Positions 47,732-58,320 of a stretch of DNA of 64,000 nucleotides are shown piece by piece. This DNA is from Candidatus Gastranaerophilales bacterium (GTDB lineage Bacteria; Cyanobacteriota; Vampirovibrionia; Gastranaerophilales; Gastranaerophilaceae). Positions within the stretch are counted from its first letter, which is position 1. The number at the start of each line of letters is the position of its first letter. The translations under genes and the position numbers were made by a program. The notes under the pieces are model-generated. The model ran no database searches, was not told the origin of the DNA, and saw only the letters and a program-made list of their open reading frames with translations. The stretch spans positions 1 through 64,000 of the forward strand of contig CALUPO010000008.1 in NCBI GenBank assembly GCA_944322675.1, written 5' to 3'.

Positions 47732-48805
47732 CTATAATTTTAAATTACCTCGAAGCATTTGTTTTAACTGATTTTTATCGTTTGTAGCATTCAAAGCTTC
47801 TTCAACTGATATAATATTATTTTTTATTAAATAAACAAGCGATGTATTGAAAGATAACATTTCACCAAAGGAGCCTTGATTTACAAGATTATATATTTCC
47901 ATTGTATTATTTTTAATAATAAAATCAGCAACAGTTGATGTTACAAATAAAACTTCACAAACTGGAAGTCTTTCATTATTTTGAGAATTTTTAATTTTTA
48001 CAAGTTGTTGAGCAACAGAAACACGTAAAGTTTCAGCAAGTTGTTTAAGAACCTGTTCATGTTCATTTGGACTATAAAATGATAAAATTCTATTTATTGT
48101 GTGATGTGCATCTGTTGTATGTAATGAAGCAAACACAAGATGACCTGTTTGAGCAGCCATAAAAGCTGTGTCCATTGTTTCTTTGTCACGTATTTCCCCA
48201 ATTAATATAATATCAGGATCTTGCCTTAATGCATATTTTAAACCACTTGCAAAAGATTCCGTATCAAAACCCACCTGTCTTTGAGTTATTAAACATTTAT
48301 TACTTTTATGTAAATATTCAATAGGATCTTCAATTGTAATTATATGTTTTTCTTCTTCATTATTTATTTTTCCAAGAATTGACGCAAGAGTTGTACTTTT
48401 ACCACATCCCGTTGGACCAGTAACTAAAATTAAACCTGTTTTTATAGTACATAAACGATTTATCATTTTAGGTAACCTGAGTTCTTCAATTGTTGGGATT
48501 TCTGATGGAATATTTCGAAAAACAAGTGCAAAAGTTCCAAGTTGTTTGCTTACATTAACGCGAAAACGTGCTTTATCTTTTAACTCATAAGAAAAATCAA
48601 GTTCATTTAAAATGCGACATGTATCTTTTGATTCAGGAGGAACAATATCACTAAGTATATGTGTTATCGTTATATCATTTAAAATATTATCATTTGCTCG
48701 TTTTATTATACCAGCAATTCTATAAAAAACAGGCAATCCAGCTTGTAGATGGATATCCGAAGCATTATTTTTGACTGCATCTTCCAAAATTTCATTTATG
48801 TTCAC
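47732..48805 (-). CDS. pilT: Twitching motility ATPase PilT
   Basis: PilT powers retraction of type IV pili. The N-terminal PAS-like domain (ASDIHLQAGLPVFYRIAG) precedes a RecA-like ATPase with GPTGCGKSTTLAS (Walker A), the Asp box EDPIEYLH, LIGEIRD (matching the AIRAGE-type region) and the His box HLVFASLHTTDAHHT. The 357 residues are normal. The start is GTG at 48805 behind GGGG-type purines; no ATG is nearby. It leads the recO-deoC-mpaA run on the minus strand. Confidence 0.95.
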   Translation of the reverse strand: MNINEILEDAVKNNASDIHLQAGLPVFYRIAGIIKRANDNILNDITITHILSDIVPPESKDTCRILNELDFSYELKDKARFRVNVSKQLGTFALVFRNIPSEIPTIEELRLPKMINRLCTIKTGLILVTGPTGCGKSTTLASILGKINNEEEKHIITIEDPIEYLHKSNKCLITQRQVGFDTESFASGLKYALRQDPDIILIGEIRDKETMDTAFMAAQTGHLVFASLHTTDAHHTINRILSFYSPNEHEQVLKQLAETLRVSVAQQLVKIKNSQNNERLPVCEVLFVTSTVADFIIKNNTMEIYNLVNQGSFGEMLSFNTSLVYLIKNNIISVEEALNATNDKNQLKQMLRGNLKL

Positions 48806-48989
48806 TTTTCTACCCCGCCAAGAAATATATTAGTAAATATACAATATTTTCCTTTAAATGTAAATTTTTTAATATTTTTTATAAGTTTTATAATATAATA
48901 AAATAAATAAAATGTCATCAAATTGGACTATTGAAGTTTTTATTTCATTTTAATATTCTATTTATAAATAAATATAATTGGAGTCTTTA

Positions 48990-50312
48990 ATGTCAATAAT
49001 TGATAAAATTGAAAATATAGGAAGTCAGATTAATGATTTGTATTCTTTTATTAATACAAATGATGAAATAAAAGATGACTGGGAAGAATATAAAAAAACT
49101 TTATCCGTTAATAATAATGAAAACAAAGCGAAATCTTATTCTATACCCTATATTTTTGAAAGAAAACTTAAAAATGGAAAAGAAGATGTCATTTCTCTTT
49201 ATATTAAAAATCAAAACAAACTTTCAAGAATCAGAAAGAAAATATTAAGTTCCTTCCAAAATTTTCAAAATGCTATTTTTGAGGTAAAAAAAGTGGCAAA
49301 AAACGGTTTCGAACTTTATAATCTTATAAATGAAAAATTATATTTCGTTATTTCAATGGTAAAAATGACACATTTTAGACAAATAGGAAGTGGTGATTAT
49401 ATCATTGCACGTATTATTGAGTTTGAAAATGATTATTATTTAATTGAACTTTCAGATGCTATAAATGCAAGCCAAAAGGAAGTTTGTTATAAATATGCTG
49501 TTTCAAAAATAATGGAAAATCCTCAAAGTGCATATTTAGACAATAAAGATAAACAAAAAATGATTGAAAAAAATATATCTAAAATGTATTCTAAATTTTT
49601 AAAATTATTTCAAAAAGACGAAATAATAACAACAAGCCAGGTTGCAGATGATATTATTGAAATTTTTAACAATTATGAAGATGATGAAAAAAGTATTGAT
49701 AAAGACTATTTAGATAAGCTTTTAAGTATAAAACCTCAAAAAATGGAATTTTATAAAATTGATTATAATAGTATAGAATATAATAATTTTATTGAGAACT
49801 CTATGAATGGATTTAAAAGCAGCGATAGTATTTTTGATGTTGGTATAATTTTTGACAAAAATTCAGGTTTTTATGCTATTCCTTTTTGGGGTACATTTCT
49901 AAAAATTTTTGAAGATGAAAATTATGAAAATAATGATAAAACTAAAGAGTGTCTTTTGTCTTTTTTACAAAATGACAAAATTTCATATAGGTTATTCGAA
50001 AACTTAAATATAAAATATCCTAAAACATTTATTAAACGTATAAATGAAATATTAAAAACAAATTATACTTTTGATGAATTGCTAGAAAATTATTTTAAAG
50101 AACAACTTGGCAAAAAAATATTTTCGCCAACTTCTATATTATATGCCTCAAATGTATTTAATGAGGTTCTAAATTGTATTGAAAAAAAACAAATTGAAGA
50201 ACAACAAAGGCAAAAAATAAATACTTTAAATAAAGAAATAGGACGTAATGATTTGTGCCCTTGTGGAAGTGGTAAAAAATATAAAAATTGTTGCTTAAAA
50301 CTAAATGTTTAA
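48990..50312 (+). CDS. Hypothetical protein with C-terminal SEC-C zinc motif
   Basis: This 440-residue protein is unrecognised apart from its last 22 residues, [19 protein letters not shown], a SEC-C motif (CxCxGSxKKYKxCC). SEC-C is a zinc-binding tail of SecA that binds SecB and ribosomes, and is found in other, unrelated proteins. The rest is helical and acidic/lysine-rich, with no membrane segment. I place the start at ATG 48990, since TTGGAG is the ribosome binding site at 7 nt; a TTG at 48978 would include it. It stands alone, beside the MITE-like element. Confidence 0.75.
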
Positions 50313-50533
50313 TATAATTATTTTATGATTTATAATATTAGGGACTTATATACAAGTTTACACAAAGCTGCCCCGTCCGGAGGACATTAAAATAATTAAT
50401 TTGTTGAAATTTAACAATTTTGAGACCTTCACCCCAACCCTCACGCTAAAAAGGGGAAAGGGGAAAGGGGAAAATAAAAAAGTTAGAGAATGAGGTCAAC
50501 AATGGCAACCCATACGCAGATTGGAACAAGCAG

Positions 50534-50761
50534 CGAAACATTGTAAGACAGCAGTCTGTTTGAGTGCGAAGCACGAGTTAAGGCTGTTTGGGTTGAATTT
50601 AGCACAGCTGTGACAATCAAGTGGGTTGAAAGGTTTTAGTTACTTTTGGTTTCAAGCGGATTTCACTCTACCGAGTGCCCTCCCTTGTACGACTCAACTT
50701 GAGCCTCCTTAACTCATGCACTTCATGCACTCAAACAGAAGGAGGCCTTGACAATGTTTCG
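50534..50761. repeat. Ordered inner inverted repeat blocks of the MITE-like element
   Basis: Three exact blocks occur in inverted order: 50534-50544 with 50751-50761 (11 nt), 50555-50567 with 50727-50739 (13 nt) and 50575-50583 with 50707-50715 (9 nt). The spacing between blocks is nearly the same on both arms, so the whole middle is one large imperfect palindrome of about 50-nt arms. Confidence 0.85.
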
Positions 50762-50874
50762 TCTGTGACTATTACTCAAACCTGCATATAGTTTGTATAT
50801 TTTAATTCCACTTAACAACATTTAATTCAATACTTGTTTTTTTAAACTATTTAAAAAGTAATTTGAAAGCTTAT

Positions 50875-50916
50875 TATATACAAGTTTACACTAAGTTTTG
50901 TGTAAACTTGTATATA
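50875..50916. terminator. Hairpin at the element's right end, possible terminator of the LptD-like gene
   Basis: A perfect 17-bp stem (TATATACAAGTTTACAC) with an 8-nt loop lies 14 nt past the stop codon of the minus-strand gene. Both sides are AT-rich without a clean T run, so termination activity is uncertain. Confidence 0.45.
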
Positions 50917-50929
50917 AGCCCCTTATTTT

Positions 50930-53167
50930 TTATAATATCTCACCTTGATTTTTGCTTTTCTTACGTTTAAACCATTTAAATTTTTTATTTTTCTTTTGTT
51001 TTTCAATATCATTCATTTCTAAATACTCAAAATCAACACCTGATTTATCCGAACCAAGCAACATAGACATGTCAAAATATGTATTTTTTCTTACATAATC
51101 ATATCCAATACTAAATTTGGCATTAGGTGGACCAACTGATATATAAAATCTATTTTCCTGCATTTTGGTGTTATCATATGTTTCACCATCAAGAACATAA
51201 ACACCACGGTAAGCTATTGATAAATATTTACATATAGCAAGAGATTGAGTAAATTCAAGAGCTGATCTTCCATAACGATATTTATCAAATTCAAAAGGAG
51301 AGTCATCTTTACTTCCTGAAATATAATAACTTACTCTAGAATGCCAACGTTTAAATCTATGAGATAAAGTAGGTGCAAATCTCACTACAGCTTGCGTGTC
51401 ACCTGTTCCATATACACCAAGAGAAGTTTGACCTATTAAGCCTAATTGTATATCTATATCATCACTATAAACATAAGTAAACAATTCTTTATATAACTCA
51501 GCCTGCCATTTTGCACGGAATGTACTAAAATTCCTATCACTTGACTCATCCCAGTTGTAATCACGTGCAATACCTGCTTTTAATTCGTGTGAAAATCTTG
51601 CTGATAATTCAGGTACATCGTAATTTTTCTTATATCGTAATTCTCCAATTAATTCAGGCATTCTTGCTCCCATAAAACCATCATCTTTATATGCGTTTAT
51701 TCCATAATCAAATGACCAATCTCCATTTATTTTATATTTACCGTCTAAAATAATCTTATCTCTAGATGTACCATATCCAAATTCAACATGGTTGCGCTTG
51801 CTTAAAAATCTTGAAATAAACCCAAGTCCAAATTCACTTTTCTGTGTTATAATAGGTGCTACTTTTAACGTTGAACCATAAGGCATTTTAAAAACAAAAC
51901 CATAACCTAAAAACATACCTAATTGGTTTTCGCTTCCTAATTCAGGTCCTGAAAGCTCAACAAAGTTTTGCTCTTTATTTGTAATAAGCTCAATATCGCC
52001 AATACCGGTTAAGTGTTCACCATTTCTATAAATAGAAGCTTTTTTAAGCTTTGCAGTATCATGGTCTTTAAACCTATCTACAATAATTGTTCTTGCTTTT
52101 AATGTAAAAGAATTATTTGATAATGATTTGTCATCCTTATTTACCATATCCTGTTGAAATTCTTGTTCCAATGGGAAATATCTTCCAAAAGTTCTTGTTT
52201 GTAAAGCTATTGCTTGTTTATCATTAAACCTTATATTTCCCCAAAAACCTTTTATTTTATCTTCGGTTAAAGTGCCATATTGAGCATTTAAAGTAATTTT
52301 ATCATCTTTTGTTATAGGATTTTCAATTAATGAACTTCCAAAATTCATGTCAATAATTATATAATCACCATAAACCCACTTGCCATCTTTAACCATTCTA
52401 ACTTTACCTTTTGCTGTCATTTTATTATGTTCGGTGTCAAAAACTATTTTATTTGCATATAATGTAGCATCTTCTTTGGCAAAATAAACACGAGCATTGC
52501 CGCTTGCTATTATATTTTGGGTTTTGGGATCATAATCCATACGCTCACTTGTTATATCAACACTTGAGTTTTCCTTTTTATTTTTTTTCTTCTCATTTTT
52601 TTTATTGAAAAACCAACTTTTTTTCTTTTTACCGGCATTGTTTTGATTTTGCTCTTGATTATTATCTTCAACCTTTATAGCCGTTGCGTTAATAGTTTCA
52701 TTTGATTCATCTGTTAAGTTAAATTTCTTCTTTGTTTCATCACTAACGTTTAAAGGTTTCTTTTTACGTTTAAACCAGCTTTTTTTCTTTTCTTTTTTGA
52801 CAATATTGTTTTGGCTTTGATTTTGCTTTTGATTATTATTTTCAACCTTTATCGCCGTTGCATTAATGGTTTCATTTGATTCATCTGTTATGTTAAATTT
52901 CTTCTTTGTTTCATCATTAACTTTTAAAGGTTTCTGTTTACGTTTAAACCAGCTTTTTTTACTTTCTTTTTTAACATTATTCTTTTCTTTTTTATTTTGA
53001 TTTTTAGGAATTTTTATTTTCAAATTTTTACTAAAATCAACAACCGGAATAACTTTTGAATTTTCGTATTCTATATCACCAGCTTTTTGTGTTTGAGCCA
53101 AAACAAAATTAGCACTCAAAATAATTGTTGTTAATGATATTAAAATTAAGTTGTTTAAAAATTTCAT
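50930..53167 (-). CDS. OstA/LptA-LptD-like outer-membrane protein
   Basis: This 745-residue exported protein has a signal peptide (1-24, ending VLA), a basic, low-complexity linker (about 45-200) and then a LptA/OstA domain (about 200-330; VDITSERMDYDPKTQNIIASG) followed by a beta-barrel-like region (about 400-720) alternating hydrophobic and aromatic residues. The layout is that of LptD, which inserts LPS into the outer membrane; the barrel part is only loosely like proteobacterial LptD. The linker contains a tandem repeat of about 56 residues with WFKRK-PL-V-DETKKKFN, and WFKRK again at the C terminus. It follows the M23 gene in the same transcript. Confidence 0.82.
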   Translation of the reverse strand: MKFLNNLILISLTTIILSANFVLAQTQKAGDIEYENSKVIPVVDFSKNLKIKIPKNQNKKEKNNVKKESKKSWFKRKQKPLKVNDETKKKFNITDESNETINATAIKVENNNQKQNQSQNNIVKKEKKKSWFKRKKKPLNVSDETKKKFNLTDESNETINATAIKVEDNNQEQNQNNAGKKKKSWFFNKKNEKKKNKKENSSVDITSERMDYDPKTQNIIASGNARVYFAKEDATLYANKIVFDTEHNKMTAKGKVRMVKDGKWVYGDYIIIDMNFGSSLIENPITKDDKITLNAQYGTLTEDKIKGFWGNIRFNDKQAIALQTRTFGRYFPLEQEFQQDMVNKDDKSLSNNSFTLKARTIIVDRFKDHDTAKLKKASIYRNGEHLTGIGDIELITNKEQNFVELSGPELGSENQLGMFLGYGFVFKMPYGSTLKVAPIITQKSEFGLGFISRFLSKRNHVEFGYGTSRDKIILDGKYKINGDWSFDYGINAYKDDGFMGARMPELIGELRYKKNYDVPELSARFSHELKAGIARDYNWDESSDRNFSTFRAKWQAELYKELFTYVYSDDIDIQLGLIGQTSLGVYGTGDTQAVVRFAPTLSHRFKRWHSRVSYYISGSKDDSPFEFDKYRYGRSALEFTQSLAICKYLSIAYRGVYVLDGETYDNTKMQENRFYISVGPPNAKFSIGYDYVRKNTYFDMSMLLGSDKSGVDFEYLEMNDIEKQKKNKKFKWFKRKKSKNQGEIL

Positions 53168-53192
53168 TTAAAAAAGTTGTCCCTTAGTAGTT

Positions 53193-54314
53193 TTATATAT
53201 AATTAAGCGGATTTTGTACTTTACCTCGTACACGAACTTCAAAATGCAAATGCGGACCGGTTGAATATCCTGTTGAACCTGCATTTCCTATTTTTTGTCC
53301 TTGACTTACTTTTTGCCCAACACTTACATTATAACTTGATAAATGTGCATATAATGTTGAGATAGCTTTTCCATTATATTGACCGTGATCAATTATTACG
53401 ACTTTTCCATAACCTCCATACCAACCAACATAAATAACTTTTCCGGCATTTGAGGCTTTAACCGGCGTTCCCATAGGAACACCTATATCAATTCCACTAT
53501 GAAATATTCTTGTTTTGAATATTGGATGTATTCTATAACCAAACGGAGATGTAATAGGACCTCTAAGAGGCCATATAAAACCAGTTGCAACCTTAACATT
53601 TGATGTTTTTGAACCAGCAAGCATTTTTTGTAATTTTTCACTTTGATATGCAAGTTCCCTTTCAGCTTTTTCATAAGCTTTTCTGTCTGTTTTAAACTTG
53701 TGTATCATATTTTCATTGCGATTTATAGCTTTTGCAAGTGATTGCTTTTCTCTAGCTATTGAGTCAATTGTTTGGGCTAAATATTGCTTTTCTCTATCAA
53801 TTTGCATTTTAAGCTGATTTACACGTATTGCACTTTGCCTCAAATTTTCAAGTTGTTTTTGGTCTTGTTTTACAATTACTTTTTGAAAATATATTCTATC
53901 TAAAAAATCATTAAAATCATAAGATGATAGTAAAAACTCAAGCATACTTCCACGTTGATTTTTAAATATTTTAACAATTCTATTAGTAGCAAGTGCTTCA
54001 TATAAAGCATAATCTTCCATAAGAATATTATATTCATTTTGTGCTTTTTCAAGTCTTTTTACAACTTCATTATAACGTGCTTTGGATGTAGTTAAATTCT
54101 TTTGAGTTTTCTCAAGTTTTAATTGATTTTTATATAATTTATTTGTTTCACGTGATTCCAAAAATTTTAAAGTGCGAATCTTTGCTTTTGTTTCTTTATG
54201 TTTTTTTACAACTTGATTATAACTTGTCGCATTTGCACCAAAACTAAACCCTGTATATACTATGAACAGAAGTAAACTTATTATTTTAATTCCATTACTT
54301 TTTATTTTGGTCAT
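53193..54314 (-). CDS. EnvC-like M23 peptidase / murein hydrolase activator
   Basis: This 373-residue protein has an N-terminal signal or anchor (10-30), a long coiled coil (about 35-235) and a C-terminal M23 (LytM) domain. The LytM zinc ligands are present, with HSGIDIG (H and D) and GPHLHFEV (HxH), so the domain may be an active endopeptidase, unlike E. coli EnvC, where they are degenerate. The overall architecture is that of EnvC/NlpD-type division-linked hydrolases. It is preceded by a 37-residue membrane peptide gene (31 nt) and followed by the LptD-like gene (25 nt), so all three probably form an operon. Confidence 0.9.
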   Translation of the reverse strand: MTKIKSNGIKIISLLLFIVYTGFSFGANATSYNQVVKKHKETKAKIRTLKFLESRETNKLYKNQLKLEKTQKNLTTSKARYNEVVKRLEKAQNEYNILMEDYALYEALATNRIVKIFKNQRGSMLEFLLSSYDFNDFLDRIYFQKVIVKQDQKQLENLRQSAIRVNQLKMQIDREKQYLAQTIDSIAREKQSLAKAINRNENMIHKFKTDRKAYEKAERELAYQSEKLQKMLAGSKTSNVKVATGFIWPLRGPITSPFGYRIHPIFKTRIFHSGIDIGVPMGTPVKASNAGKVIYVGWYGGYGKVVIIDHGQYNGKAISTLYAHLSSYNVSVGQKVSQGQKIGNAGSTGYSTGPHLHFEVRVRGKVQNPLNYI

Positions 54315-54345
54315 GTTCTTACGTTTTTAACCGGCTTTTATCTTT

Positions 54346-54459
54346 TTAATTACTAAATTGGGAAATTAAAGCTATAGCAAGAGGAGCTACTGTCCAAAAA
54401 ATAAATGATAAAGCTAGTATTGATACAATTATTTTTTGATGTTTACGAAAAAATTCCAT
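54346..54459 (-). CDS. 37-residue membrane peptide
   Basis: A short frame reads MEFFRKHQKIIVSILALSF and continues to a stop after 37 codons. It is a basic head followed by a single hydrophobic segment (about 10-33). A clear ribosome binding site (AAGGGA, 6 nt before the ATG) supports translation. It lies 31 nt before the M23 peptidase gene on the same strand. A head of MEFFRKHQK-type followed by a membrane helix suits a small inner-membrane accessory of the divisome or LPS assembly; that is inferred from context only. Confidence 0.68.
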   Translation of the reverse strand: MEFFRKHQKIIVSILALSFIFWTVAPLAIALISQFSN

Positions 54460-54590
54460 AAAAAATCCCTTAAATTGAATACTACTTTACATTTTACTTC
54501 AAAAATTTGTCTTTGCAAATTATTACTATATAGTAATCTTATTATATTTTAACATTTGATTTATTTATTAGCTTTTGTTTTAATGTTGTT

Positions 54591-55322
54591 ATGATGATTC
54601 AAGTTGAGAATTTAAATAAGTCATATAATAAAAATATTTGTGTTTTGAAGAACATAAATATTAACATAAAAAAAGGAGAGATTGTAGGTATTGTTGGATC
54701 TTCAGGTTGTGGCAAAAGTACTTTTTTGAAAACATTAAATGCTCTTGAGCCTATAAATTCGGGGTCTATTTATATAGACGGAATAAAACTTGATTCTAAA
54801 AAGAATATTCGTGAAGCCAGAAAAAAAATAGGAATTGTTTTTCAAGGGTATAACCTTTTTGAAAATTATACTGTTATTGAAAATATTACTTTAGCTCCTA
54901 TAAAAGTTAAGAAAATGAATAAAGAAGATGCATATAATAAAGCACGTAAGCTCTTAAAGAAAATTGACCTTATGGATAGAGAAGATTTTTATCCCCATCA
55001 ACTTTCAGGTGGTCAAAAACAAAGAGTTGCTATTGCAAGATGTCTTGCTATGGAGCCTTTGGTGCTGCTTTTTGATGAACCTACCTCCGCTCTTGATCCT
55101 CAGATGACTCTTGAAGTTTTAAATGTTATGAGAGAACTTAAACATGATGGACTAACTATGGTAATTGTTTCACATGAACTTAGATTTTTATCTGAAATAG
55201 CTGATAAAATTGTTTTTATGTATAATAATACAATATGGGAAGAATCCTCTTCTTATGATTTTTTTAATAATCCTAAAACAAATGAAGCAAGCGAATTTTT
55301 AAGTCACGTTAAAAGTTTTTAG
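54591..55322 (+). CDS. Polar amino-acid ABC transporter, ATP-binding protein (GlnQ/HisP type)
   Basis: This 243-residue ATPase has Walker A GSSGCGKSTFLK, the Q-loop VFQGYNLFENYTVIENITLAP, signature LSGGQKQRVAIARCLAM and Walker B LLFDEPTSALDPQM, the standard set of the polar amino-acid uptake (PAAT) family. It is the first gene of a complete uptake operon (ATPase, lipoprotein, two permeases). A TTTAAT box ends 6 nt before the first ATG and there is no ribosome binding site, so a leaderless start is again possible. Substrate is unknown; glutamine, glutamate, histidine or arginine are likely. Confidence 0.95.
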   Translation: MMIQVENLNKSYNKNICVLKNININIKKGEIVGIVGSSGCGKSTFLKTLNALEPINSGSIYIDGIKLDSKKNIREARKKIGIVFQGYNLFENYTVIENITLAPIKVKKMNKEDAYNKARKLLKKIDLMDREDFYPHQLSGGQKQRVAIARCLAMEPLVLLFDEPTSALDPQMTLEVLNVMRELKHDGLTMVIVSHELRFLSEIADKIVFMYNNTIWEESSSYDFFNNPKTNEASEFLSHVKSF

Positions 55323-55353
55323 TATTTTACTTAAATTTGGAGAATTTATTGCT

Positions 55354-56139
55354 ATGAAAAATATTTTTATATGTTTATTAATGATTATAACCGGTCTTTT
55401 GCTTTCAGGTTGCGGAAATGAGCAAAAACAAGTGGTGGATATATATGATAAAATAAAAGCACGTGATAAATTGATTGTAGGTGTCAAATATGATACTAAG
55501 CCTTTTGGTTTTATTGACAAAAATCAGGAAGTTACCGGATTTGATGTTGATTTGGCTCGTATGATTGCAAAATATATTTTAAATGATCCAAATAAGGTTG
55601 AGTTTGTTCAAGTAACTCCACAAAATAGGATTCTGGCTTTAAACTCCGGACAAATTGATATGATTATTGCAACTATGACAGTTACTGAACAAAGAAAGCA
55701 AGTTGTAGAGTTTTCAAGACCTTATTATGTTGCCGGACAAGCTATTATGGTTAATAAAGATAGTTTGATAAAAAATATAAATGACTTAAGAAATAAAAAA
55801 ATAATTATAGTTTTAGGAACAACGGCCGATAGAAATATAAAAAATATTGCACCTGAATCTATGATACAGGGATATAGAACATATAATGATGCTTTTGCTG
55901 CTTTAAAAAATAATCGTGGCGATGCTTTAATAACAGATGATAGCATTTTGTTAGGTTTGATTTCAGATGACTCAAATTTTAAAATATTATCTAAAAGATA
56001 TACCAAAGAACCTTATGCAATTGCTTTAAAAAAAGGTCCTGAATCACATAAACTTCTTTTCTATATTGACAATGCTTTAAATTCTTTTGAACAGTCAGGT
56101 GAGTTAAATAATTTAAAACGAAAATGGATTAAAAATTAA
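55354..56139 (+). CDS. Polar amino-acid ABC transporter, substrate-binding lipoprotein
   Basis: This 261-residue protein has a lipoprotein signal peptide with lipobox LLSGC (cysteine 20) and the SBP family-3 fold: LIVGVKYDTKPFGFID, VTGFDVDLARMIAKYI, MIIATMTVTEQRKQVVEFS and a C-terminal helix. Second-lobe motif DALITDD is present. It binds a polar amino acid and delivers it to the two permeases. A ribosome binding site (TTGGAG) lies upstream, 31 nt after the ATPase stop. Confidence 0.95.
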   Translation: MKNIFICLLMIITGLLLSGCGNEQKQVVDIYDKIKARDKLIVGVKYDTKPFGFIDKNQEVTGFDVDLARMIAKYILNDPNKVEFVQVTPQNRILALNSGQIDMIIATMTVTEQRKQVVEFSRPYYVAGQAIMVNKDSLIKNINDLRNKKIIIVLGTTADRNIKNIAPESMIQGYRTYNDAFAALKNNRGDALITDDSILLGLISDDSNFKILSKRYTKEPYAIALKKGPESHKLLFYIDNALNSFEQSGELNNLKRKWIKN

Positions 56140-56141
56140 TT

Positions 56142-56822
56142 ATGTATAATGTTGATTTTTCAATTTTATATAAAAGTTTACCTCAAATTATTGAAGGTTT
56201 GACAACAACAATTTATGTTTGTCTAATATCATTTATTTTTGCTTTTATTTTATCAAGCTTTATTACTTATTTTCGTGTATTAAAAGGAATTAAGTTTATT
56301 GAAAATGCTCTTGCTTGTTTGGTTGAATTTATTCGTAATACTCCTTTATTACTTCAAATATATGTAGTTTTTAAGTTATTGCCGCAGGTGGGACTCACAT
56401 TTTCACCTGTTCTAAGCGGAATTTTAGCTTTGTCTTTATATCAAGGAGTGTATTTTTCGGAAGTAATGCGAAGCGGTATAGCACAAATTAAAGGCGAACA
56501 AAAAAATGCAGCTTATTCACTTGGTTTTTCATCATTTGAAACATTTATTTTTATTATATTTCCTCAAGGATTAAAAAATGTTATTTCACCTCTTGGTTCC
56601 CAAATTATTAATCTTATAAAAAATTCCTCTCTTTTAAGCTTTATTGCTGTTAGTGATATATTTTATATTAGTTATCAAAAAATTGCTGATGACTTTAGAA
56701 TTATTGAATATTTTACATTATGCCTTATTTTATACACAAGTTTAACCGGCATTGTTTTAATTTTTACTCATATATTAAATTTTTGTTTAAAAGTTAAATT
56801 TAAAGAGGTATCATTTGCATGA
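56142..56822 (+). CDS. Polar amino-acid ABC transporter permease 1
   Basis: This 226-residue permease has five or so membrane segments and the family EAA loop (KNAAYSLGFSSFETFIFIIFPQGLKN). The FIRNTPLLLQIYVVF segment is typical of HisQ/GlnP-type subunits. It starts 2 nt after the binding-protein stop and ends with a 4-nt overlap with the second permease (ATGA). Confidence 0.94.
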   Translation: MYNVDFSILYKSLPQIIEGLTTTIYVCLISFIFAFILSSFITYFRVLKGIKFIENALACLVEFIRNTPLLLQIYVVFKLLPQVGLTFSPVLSGILALSLYQGVYFSEVMRSGIAQIKGEQKNAAYSLGFSSFETFIFIIFPQGLKNVISPLGSQIINLIKNSSLLSFIAVSDIFYISYQKIADDFRIIEYFTLCLILYTSLTGIVLIFTHILNFCLKVKFKEVSFA

Positions 56823-57499
56823 ATGATTTGATTACTAATATGCCATATCTTTTAAACGGATTTAAAGTTACAATTATTTTGTCTTTTTATAGTATTATTT
56901 TTAGTCTTTTTCTTGGTGTAACATTTGGAGTTTTACGTTATTTTAAAATACCATTTGTAAGCTTTTTTTGTGCTTGTTTTATTGAACTAACCCGTTCAAT
57001 TCCTTTAATTTTATATATTGTATTTATTCATTATACAATATCACCTTATTTATTTAATACTTATAATTTTACTTCATATCTGGGTATAGATTCTGTTGAA
57101 ATGCAGACAGCATTAATTTCATTAACTTTATTTACAAGTGCTTATATTGCTGAAATAGTTAGAAGCGGGATGGAAAATATAGACCGTCAACAAATATGGG
57201 ATGCAAAATCTTTAGGTTTTTCAACTTTTCAAACAGTTAGATATATTATATTACCTGTTGTTTTGGCTAAGTCATTGCCTTCGTGGATCGCTCAATTTGC
57301 TTCATTGATTAAAGACACTTCACTTGTTTCTGTTATTGGTTTGGTTGAATTAACACGTGCTTCTGAAATAATATCTGAAATTACTGGAAAAGACTTTATA
57401 ATAATGTTTTTTACATTATTTACCTATTTTATTATATGTTTTCTTTTATCCAACTTGGCAAAATATTTAAATAAAAAGTATAATTATATGAATATTTAG
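56819..57499 (+). CDS. Polar amino-acid ABC transporter permease 2
   Basis: Also 226 residues and of the same family, with FIELTRSIPLILYIVF and the EAA-type loop (WDAKSLGFSTFQTVRYIILPV). The pair forms a heterodimeric channel. It overlaps permease 1 by 4 nt, so they are co-translated. No clear terminator follows; the HdeD-like gene begins 78 nt later. Confidence 0.94.
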   Translation: MNDLITNMPYLLNGFKVTIILSFYSIIFSLFLGVTFGVLRYFKIPFVSFFCACFIELTRSIPLILYIVFIHYTISPYLFNTYNFTSYLGIDSVEMQTALISLTLFTSAYIAEIVRSGMENIDRQQIWDAKSLGFSTFQTVRYIILPVVLAKSLPSWIAQFASLIKDTSLVSVIGLVELTRASEIISEITGKDFIIMFFTLFTYFIICFLLSNLAKYLNKKYNYMNI

Positions 57500-57577
57500 T
57501 TATAAAAATGTTAAACTTTTTATCAATGTTTTTGATAGAAAAATGTAATATTAATAAAATAACAGCCAAGATAATAA

Positions 57578-58144
57578 ATGAAAGGATTAATAAAAGTGTA
57601 TAAGAGTAACTATTCAAAATGTATAAGTTTTTTTGTTGCTGAGGGTATAATTTTTACAATACTTGGCCTTCTTATGTTATTTATGCCAATGATAACAAGT
57701 TATGCTGCAAGTTTAATTATTAGTATTTTACTGTTTATTGGAGGTTTGTATAAAATTATTAACTCAATAATTAACAGAAACTTTATGTCAAAACCTGTAT
57801 TATCTATAATAATTGGAATATTAATGGTGTCTGCAGGTATAATATTAACAATTCACCCTGTGATCAATATGTTCTTATTGACGATAATTTTAGCAGCGTA
57901 TTTTATACTTGAAGGTATAAATTCTTTAAATTTTGCTATTCATAATCGAAATTTGCTTACATATTGGTGGCTGGCAGCTGTTGTTTCATTAATACAATTT
58001 ATGTTGGCAGCTATAATTTTAGCAAGTTTACCATTTAGTGCTTTAATTACTGTTGGTTTACTTTTAAGTATTGATTTTATATTTTCAGGCTTGACTTTGC
58101 TTTCTTTATCATCAACATGCAAATATGTTGTTCCAGGGGATTAA
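57578..58144 (+). CDS. HdeD/DUF308 family membrane protein
   Basis: This 188-residue protein is almost entirely hydrophobic, with about six membrane segments in two similar halves (GIIFTILGLLMLFMPMITSYAASLII and PVLSIIIGILMVSAGIILTIHPV), the pattern of HdeD. E. coli HdeD is linked to acid resistance, but the general function is unknown. AATGAAAGGATTAATAAAAGTG lies at the start. It could be the last gene of the transporter transcript or stand alone. Confidence 0.85.
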   Translation: MKGLIKVYKSNYSKCISFFVAEGIIFTILGLLMLFMPMITSYAASLIISILLFIGGLYKIINSIINRNFMSKPVLSIIIGILMVSAGIILTIHPVINMFLLTIILAAYFILEGINSLNFAIHNRNLLTYWWLAAVVSLIQFMLAAIILASLPFSALITVGLLLSIDFIFSGLTLLSLSSTCKYVVPGD

Positions 58145-58246
58145 TAGCGTATTTAATATCTTTAGTTAAATACGCTGAATAAATTGAAATAGCTGTTAAT
58201 TTTATAATTGACAGTTATTTCTTTTATGTTTATTATTATATTACAA

Positions 58247-58320
58247 GCCTCGGTAGCTCAGCTGGATAGAGCGCTTCCGTCCTAAGGAAGGCGTCGCACG
58301 TTCGAATCGTGTCCGGGGTA
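58247..58320 (+). tRNA. tRNA-Arg (anticodon CCU)
   Basis: A 74-nt tRNA: acceptor GCCTCGG pairing with CCGGGGT (with G-U pairs at the first and fourth positions), D stem GCTC...GAGC, anticodon stem CTTCC/GGAAG around loop GTCCTAA (anticodon CCT, reading AGG), T arm with TTCGAAT, and discriminator A. CCA is not encoded. A terminator follows directly. Arg tRNA genes are frequent integration sites, and the next four genes look accessory. Confidence 0.95.

Follow-up and report, generated by a model that had tools for sequence, protein, structure and literature searches.

Correia elements and other bacterial MITEs are short and gene-less, are bounded by terminal inverted repeats of about 26 bp, and occur in high copy number, mostly in intergenic regions (PMC10969869, PMC3049150). 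The BOX elements of Streptococcus pneumoniae are composite repeats in which the end modules are fixed and the number of internal modules varies; they are mostly gene-less and probably non-autonomous (PMC3049150). Passenger genes are known in the IS1595 family (PMC11891212, PMC5704250). Here we describe a MITE with IS1595-type ends, found in a window of 64,000 nucleotides (the whole stretch of DNA that was analyzed). The window belongs to contig C8 of a draft genome of Candidatus Gastranaerophilales (about 2.1 Mb in 41 contigs, 28% GC). In what follows, G000 is this genome, G001 is a sister species of the same genus, C-numbers are contigs, and L-numbers are sequence stretches.

An element with inverted ends and no coding frame

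The element lies beside a 745-aa gene whose nearest named relative is found in the Candidatus Gastranaerophilales MAG CALUYS010000009.1 (79% identity). A sequence-only reading had labeled this gene LptD-like, which Pfam did not confirm. The features of the locus are as follows.

50341–50922, no strand: whole element, a putative chimera with a mosaic interior, 582 bp
50341–50367, + strand: left terminal inverted repeat, a left-type end, GGGACTTATATACAAGTTTACACAAAG
50370–50390, + strand: spacer motif M, GCCCCGTCCGGAGGACATTAA, a separator of modules in arrays
50391–50663, + strand: left half, a forward-oriented module stretch that matches arrays in the array's own orientation
50664–50688, no strand: orientation-switch region
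50689–50868, - strand: right half, an inverted module stretch that matches arrays in reversed orientation
50869–50922, - strand: 54-bp hairpin unit, both terminal repeats back to back, outermost arm left-type
50896–50922, - strand: right terminal inverted repeat, 25/27 against the left repeat
50333–50340, + strand: left flank 8-mer TAATATTA, identical to the flank of a right-type end on another contig (C9:81877/81824)
197–250, - strand: second hairpin copy in the window, 54-bp form

Much of what the sequence-only reading had reported was confirmed. The two ends match at 25 of 27 positions in inverted orientation, TTA stands on both flanks, the right end is a hairpin (21-nt arms at 95% by repeat finding), the interior has no coding frame (the longest stop-to-stop frame is 53 codons), and the similar copy at the window start is the hairpin at 197-250. 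Since none of 20,000 inverted 27-mer pairs drawn at random from the window matched at more than 19 positions, the match between the ends is far beyond chance, and repeat finding extended their inverted pairing to 39 nt at 87%. The stop codon of the 745-aa gene, at 50930, is 8 nt away from the end of the right-end hairpin (folding z = -7.5/-5.6). The 582-bp copy thus combines the terminal inverted repeats of a MITE with a lack of transposase or other coding capacity; its flanks, TAATATTA and TTATTTTT, match at 5 of 8 positions and form no target duplication.

A multicopy family with 8-bp target duplications

Within its own genome, the 582-bp element gave more than 300 BLAST matches, and the 26-base end pattern (up to 3 mismatches) gave 106, with none for the reversed control. 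About 53 hairpins and 20 left ends were counted in about 326 kb of pooled stretches of the genome, all copy counts being approximate, as they come from searches and selected stretches. The family takes three forms: lone 54-bp palindromes, in which a left and a right terminal repeat are placed back to back; composites (493 to 1622 bp) in which a module array stands between a left end and a right-end hairpin; and module arrays in which no ends were recognized. All hairpins but one (52/53) lie outside long open frames. Multiple dispersed copies, as the sequence-only reading had anticipated, are therefore present, and its proposal of a MITE-like, non-autonomous DNA transposon holds at the level of the family, which is multicopy, lacks a transposase, and has terminal inverted repeats. 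Contigs C1, C2, C4, C9, C16, C17, C24, C26, C28, C32, C33, and others start or end inside module arrays, and these arrays probably limit the assembly of this genome.

An exact 8-bp direct repeat was found at the strict boundary of 7 of the 13 composites with pairable ends (1.1% for mispaired flanks), and 8 is the only duplication length above 2 that fits all 9 exact cases, two lone hairpins among them. Lone hairpins that keep a duplication are rare (2/16), and several further copies have no recognizable one. The TTA flanks had been taken for an insertion signature; the 8-bp duplication displaces them, along with TTA as a PIF/IS5-like target duplication. Some sites are element-free in the sister species: around C1:87716 and C31:8725, the orthologous sequences lie close together there with no element between them. 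There is no clean empty site beside the 745-aa gene in G001, because its neighbor in that species is a gene not found in this genome. By contrast with the two element-free sites, the insertion at C13:43447-43955 is shared with G001:C3. Around it, L134 and L075 (C13:42000-45411) share 93% identity over 3.4 kb, the other orthologous stretches between the two species being 70 to 82% identical, which hints at transfer or unusual conservation.

A mosaic interior with oriented modules

Palindromic modules (M, B, K, C, S, P, D, and E) make up the mosaic interior and recur across arrays, where they are separated by CCCCGTCCGGAGGACATTAA. In the 43 arrays with an anchored end, the orientation of the module was that of the array in 319 of 323 module matches. 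The typical left junction is TTTACACAAAG followed by YTKCYCCGTCCGGAGG, and the typical right junction is ATTAAAATATT followed by the hairpin. These conserved junctions suggest one founding composite whose modules may have been shuffled later. Among the 59 relatives tested, the interior was present only in the two genomes of this genus, and a search of eight loci against Rfam returned tRNAs only, with nothing resembling the interior. A further GC-rich repeat, bounded by GAATTTCC and GGAAATTC, apparently lies within array modules (C22:25100-25388 and C9:33890-34000), forming nested repeats in a genome of low GC content.

Arrays of oriented modules could also be the product of a dedicated process, for instance one that captures modules in a set orientation at the CCGTCCGGAGGAC spacer and then spreads them on IS1595-type ends. 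If true, this would constitute a coding-free cassette system. We regard it as very improbable. An integron-like cassette array would call for recombination sites and a tyrosine integrase that acts on them; taken alone, the orientation bias of the modules is also explained by homologous shuffling.

Ends shared with IS1595-family transposons

The element had been described as not obviously of any known family, but its ends match those of IS1595-family transposons. Matching ends were found in 63 of the 191 genomes of the bacterial family, representing 23 of 41 genera, and the control matched almost none. In these genomes, inverted end pairs with 8-bp duplications bound both short MITEs and long elements. 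The long transposons span 8 to 12 kb, and three of them (8.15, 8.7, and 11.7 kb) encode an IS1595-family transposase (matches to PF12762 and NF033547), revealing that the autonomous relative with similar ends proposed earlier exists in related genomes. The left end of the window element matches the left ends of those in L194 and L196 at 22 and 21 of 26 positions, respectively, and the 8-bp target duplication is common to the MITEs and the transposase-bearing elements. From these shared ends and duplications we infer mobilization in trans, in which an IS1595-family (ISXO2-like) DDE transposase would recognize the terminal repeats and make the 8-bp target duplications. This transposase is scarce (13 of the 191 family genomes) and was not found in the draft genome G000. 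The copies in this genome are thus non-autonomous, and the family there is currently without a helper, as far as the draft shows. The exact end pattern had no match in named GTDB genomes, in a search that may omit the records of this or a very near genome. Two other families were considered and set aside: neither IS256, prompted by the TTTACACAAA ends, nor ISL3 has a transposase in this or the sister genome.

The three IS1595-family transposons (L194:880-9030, L196:920-9617, and L223:122-11793) have a common frame and differ in their middle genes. The frame consists of a DUF2130 gene at the left end and, at the right, the IS1595 transposase and a small unidentified gene. The cargo is alternatively an EcoRII-C-type restriction enzyme with a C5 methylase, a different type II restriction-modification set, or a type IIG enzyme accompanied by a PLD/SNF2 helicase and an integrase of phage type. 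These transposons look like interchangeable defense carriers. Other elements with the same kind of ends carry different contents: a 3.0-kb element (L190:999-3997; 8-bp duplication AAAACTTA) has no transposase and a 638-aa flagellin as its sole main gene, and a 1.85-kb element (L189:1037-2884; exact 8-bp duplication AAATCGTG) has two unidentified open frames (269 and 96 aa). The sister genome G001 has its own MITE of about 165 bp (L141, L142, and L151, near position 1500), with the same kind of ends, a different interior, and the 8-bp duplications TAATACAA, TAAATTAA, and TTAAATTT. Its only IS1595 transposase remnant (L133, G001:C10:15244-15417) is intergenic, in the region that corresponds by orthology to the insertion site C24:15531-16059.

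An apparent head-to-head copy at a synteny break

The window copy has left-type ends on both sides, as does one other copy (C15:23687-24179), and its modules run forward up to 50663 and inverted from 50689. Its flanks are on different contigs in G001. There, the orthologue of window 48672-50312 directly adjoins the orthologue of C9:81792-80500, and the collinearity runs on for kilobases in both directions. Contig C9 of this genome terminates in an element, and the 8-mer beside the right end of that element is TAATATTA, as is the one preceding the window element. Among dozens of A+T-rich flanks this match alone could be chance, but the sister-species adjacency supports the link between C9 and the window independently of it. 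One element was probably once inserted between the gene at 48978-50312 and the C9 gene, and its halves are now apart. In this genome C2:10281 and C2:9327 are continuous, whereas in G001 their orthologues enclose the block 50930-58320, which here stands to the right of the element; the block has therefore moved in one lineage, and the element is one of its borders. What had been read as a simple insertion is better described as an inverted copy, lacking a target duplication, at a synteny break. The right flank TTATTTTT could also be paired, by flank match, with the hairpin at C2:14046, a pairing unsupported by sister synteny and expected by chance, since dozens of flanks were compared. Elsewhere, C5:99707-100726 and C5:11590-12615 are 90 kb apart, each beside an array, whereas their orthologues in G001 are neighbors, which is a possible second rearrangement at these repeats.

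Origin of the window copy

We consider it probable that these repeats are a non-autonomous mosaic MITE family with IS1595-type ends and that the window copy is a head-to-head chimera at a rearrangement breakpoint. The basic unit would be the 54-bp palindrome, and in a composite this unit would have been split open by an array of palindromic modules that carry no genes and almost all face the same way. For the window copy, the simplest account is recombination between two copies of opposite orientation, which may have left a head-to-head chimera at the chromosomal breakpoint. The target duplication would be missing because the copy is a chimera and not because the family fails to transpose. It counts against this model that no helper transposase was found in this genome, that lone hairpins seldom keep a duplication, and that the reciprocal product is unidentifiable, contig C9 ending inside its element. 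The same draft contigs leave room for an assembly artefact, in which the family and the half-elements are real, two elements were misjoined at a shared repeat, and the 582-bp copy does not exist. Draft assemblies can misjoin at repeats, many contigs here begin or end inside arrays, the copy is internally inverted without a duplication, and the sequence that ancestrally adjoined its left flank is found on a different contig, which itself ends in an element. Nevertheless, the block 50930-58320 is absent here from its sister-species position, where C2:9327 and C2:10281 are continuous, which shows that the block really has moved between the species, with the element at one border. We thus infer real recombination and judge misassembly unlikely, if far from negligible.

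The state of the flanks could alternatively reflect a single, ordinary MITE insertion that lost its target duplication through mutation, as several other copies also have no recognizable duplication. This reading is disfavored and has very little probability, given the left-type ends on both sides, the inverted right half, and the location of the two flanks on different contigs in G001. A separate question is whether the right-end hairpin was co-opted to terminate transcription of the 745-aa gene, as had been suggested. The hairpin is strong, lies 8 nt from the stop codon, and belongs to a set found almost entirely outside long open frames. However, the terminator scan calls nothing there, the stem is A+T rich where a GC-rich one would be expected, and no T-run follows it on the minus strand, the strand of the adjacent gene. 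The suggestion is therefore unsupported, and we hold such a role to be very unlikely.

Comparison with known systems

New in this family are its mosaic, orientation-locked organization in Gastranaerophilales, a minimal form of only 54 bp, the partner family identified for it, and the position of one copy at a synteny break; no description of this mosaic family was found in the literature searched, the coverage of which was partial. An apparently orphan repeat of a little-studied gut lineage is thereby tied to a known transposase family. The family helps account for assembly breaks in this lineage, and our results suggest that MITEs of this kind mark places where the chromosomes of sister species have been rearranged, and may even cause such rearrangements. 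The restriction-modification genes of the transposase-bearing relatives are interchangeable, so ends of this kind also appear to move defense genes in the lineage.

The window family resembles Correia elements and other bacterial MITEs in its short gene-less form, inverted ends, copy number, and intergenic placing, and differs from them in its 8-bp duplication, IS1595-type ends, mosaic interior, and 54-bp minimal form. With BOX elements, compared by description only, it shares the composite module repeat; its host and ends are different, and it combines several types of module with 8-bp duplications and ends of the IS1595 type. The IS1595 family (ISXO2-like, including the passenger-gene forms tISCpe8 and MTnSag1) is likewise bounded by terminal inverted repeats (about 25 bp) and produces target duplications. 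Its members with closely similar ends encode an IS1595-family transposase, whereas the window family has neither transposase nor gene, and its interior is instead a mosaic of palindromic modules.
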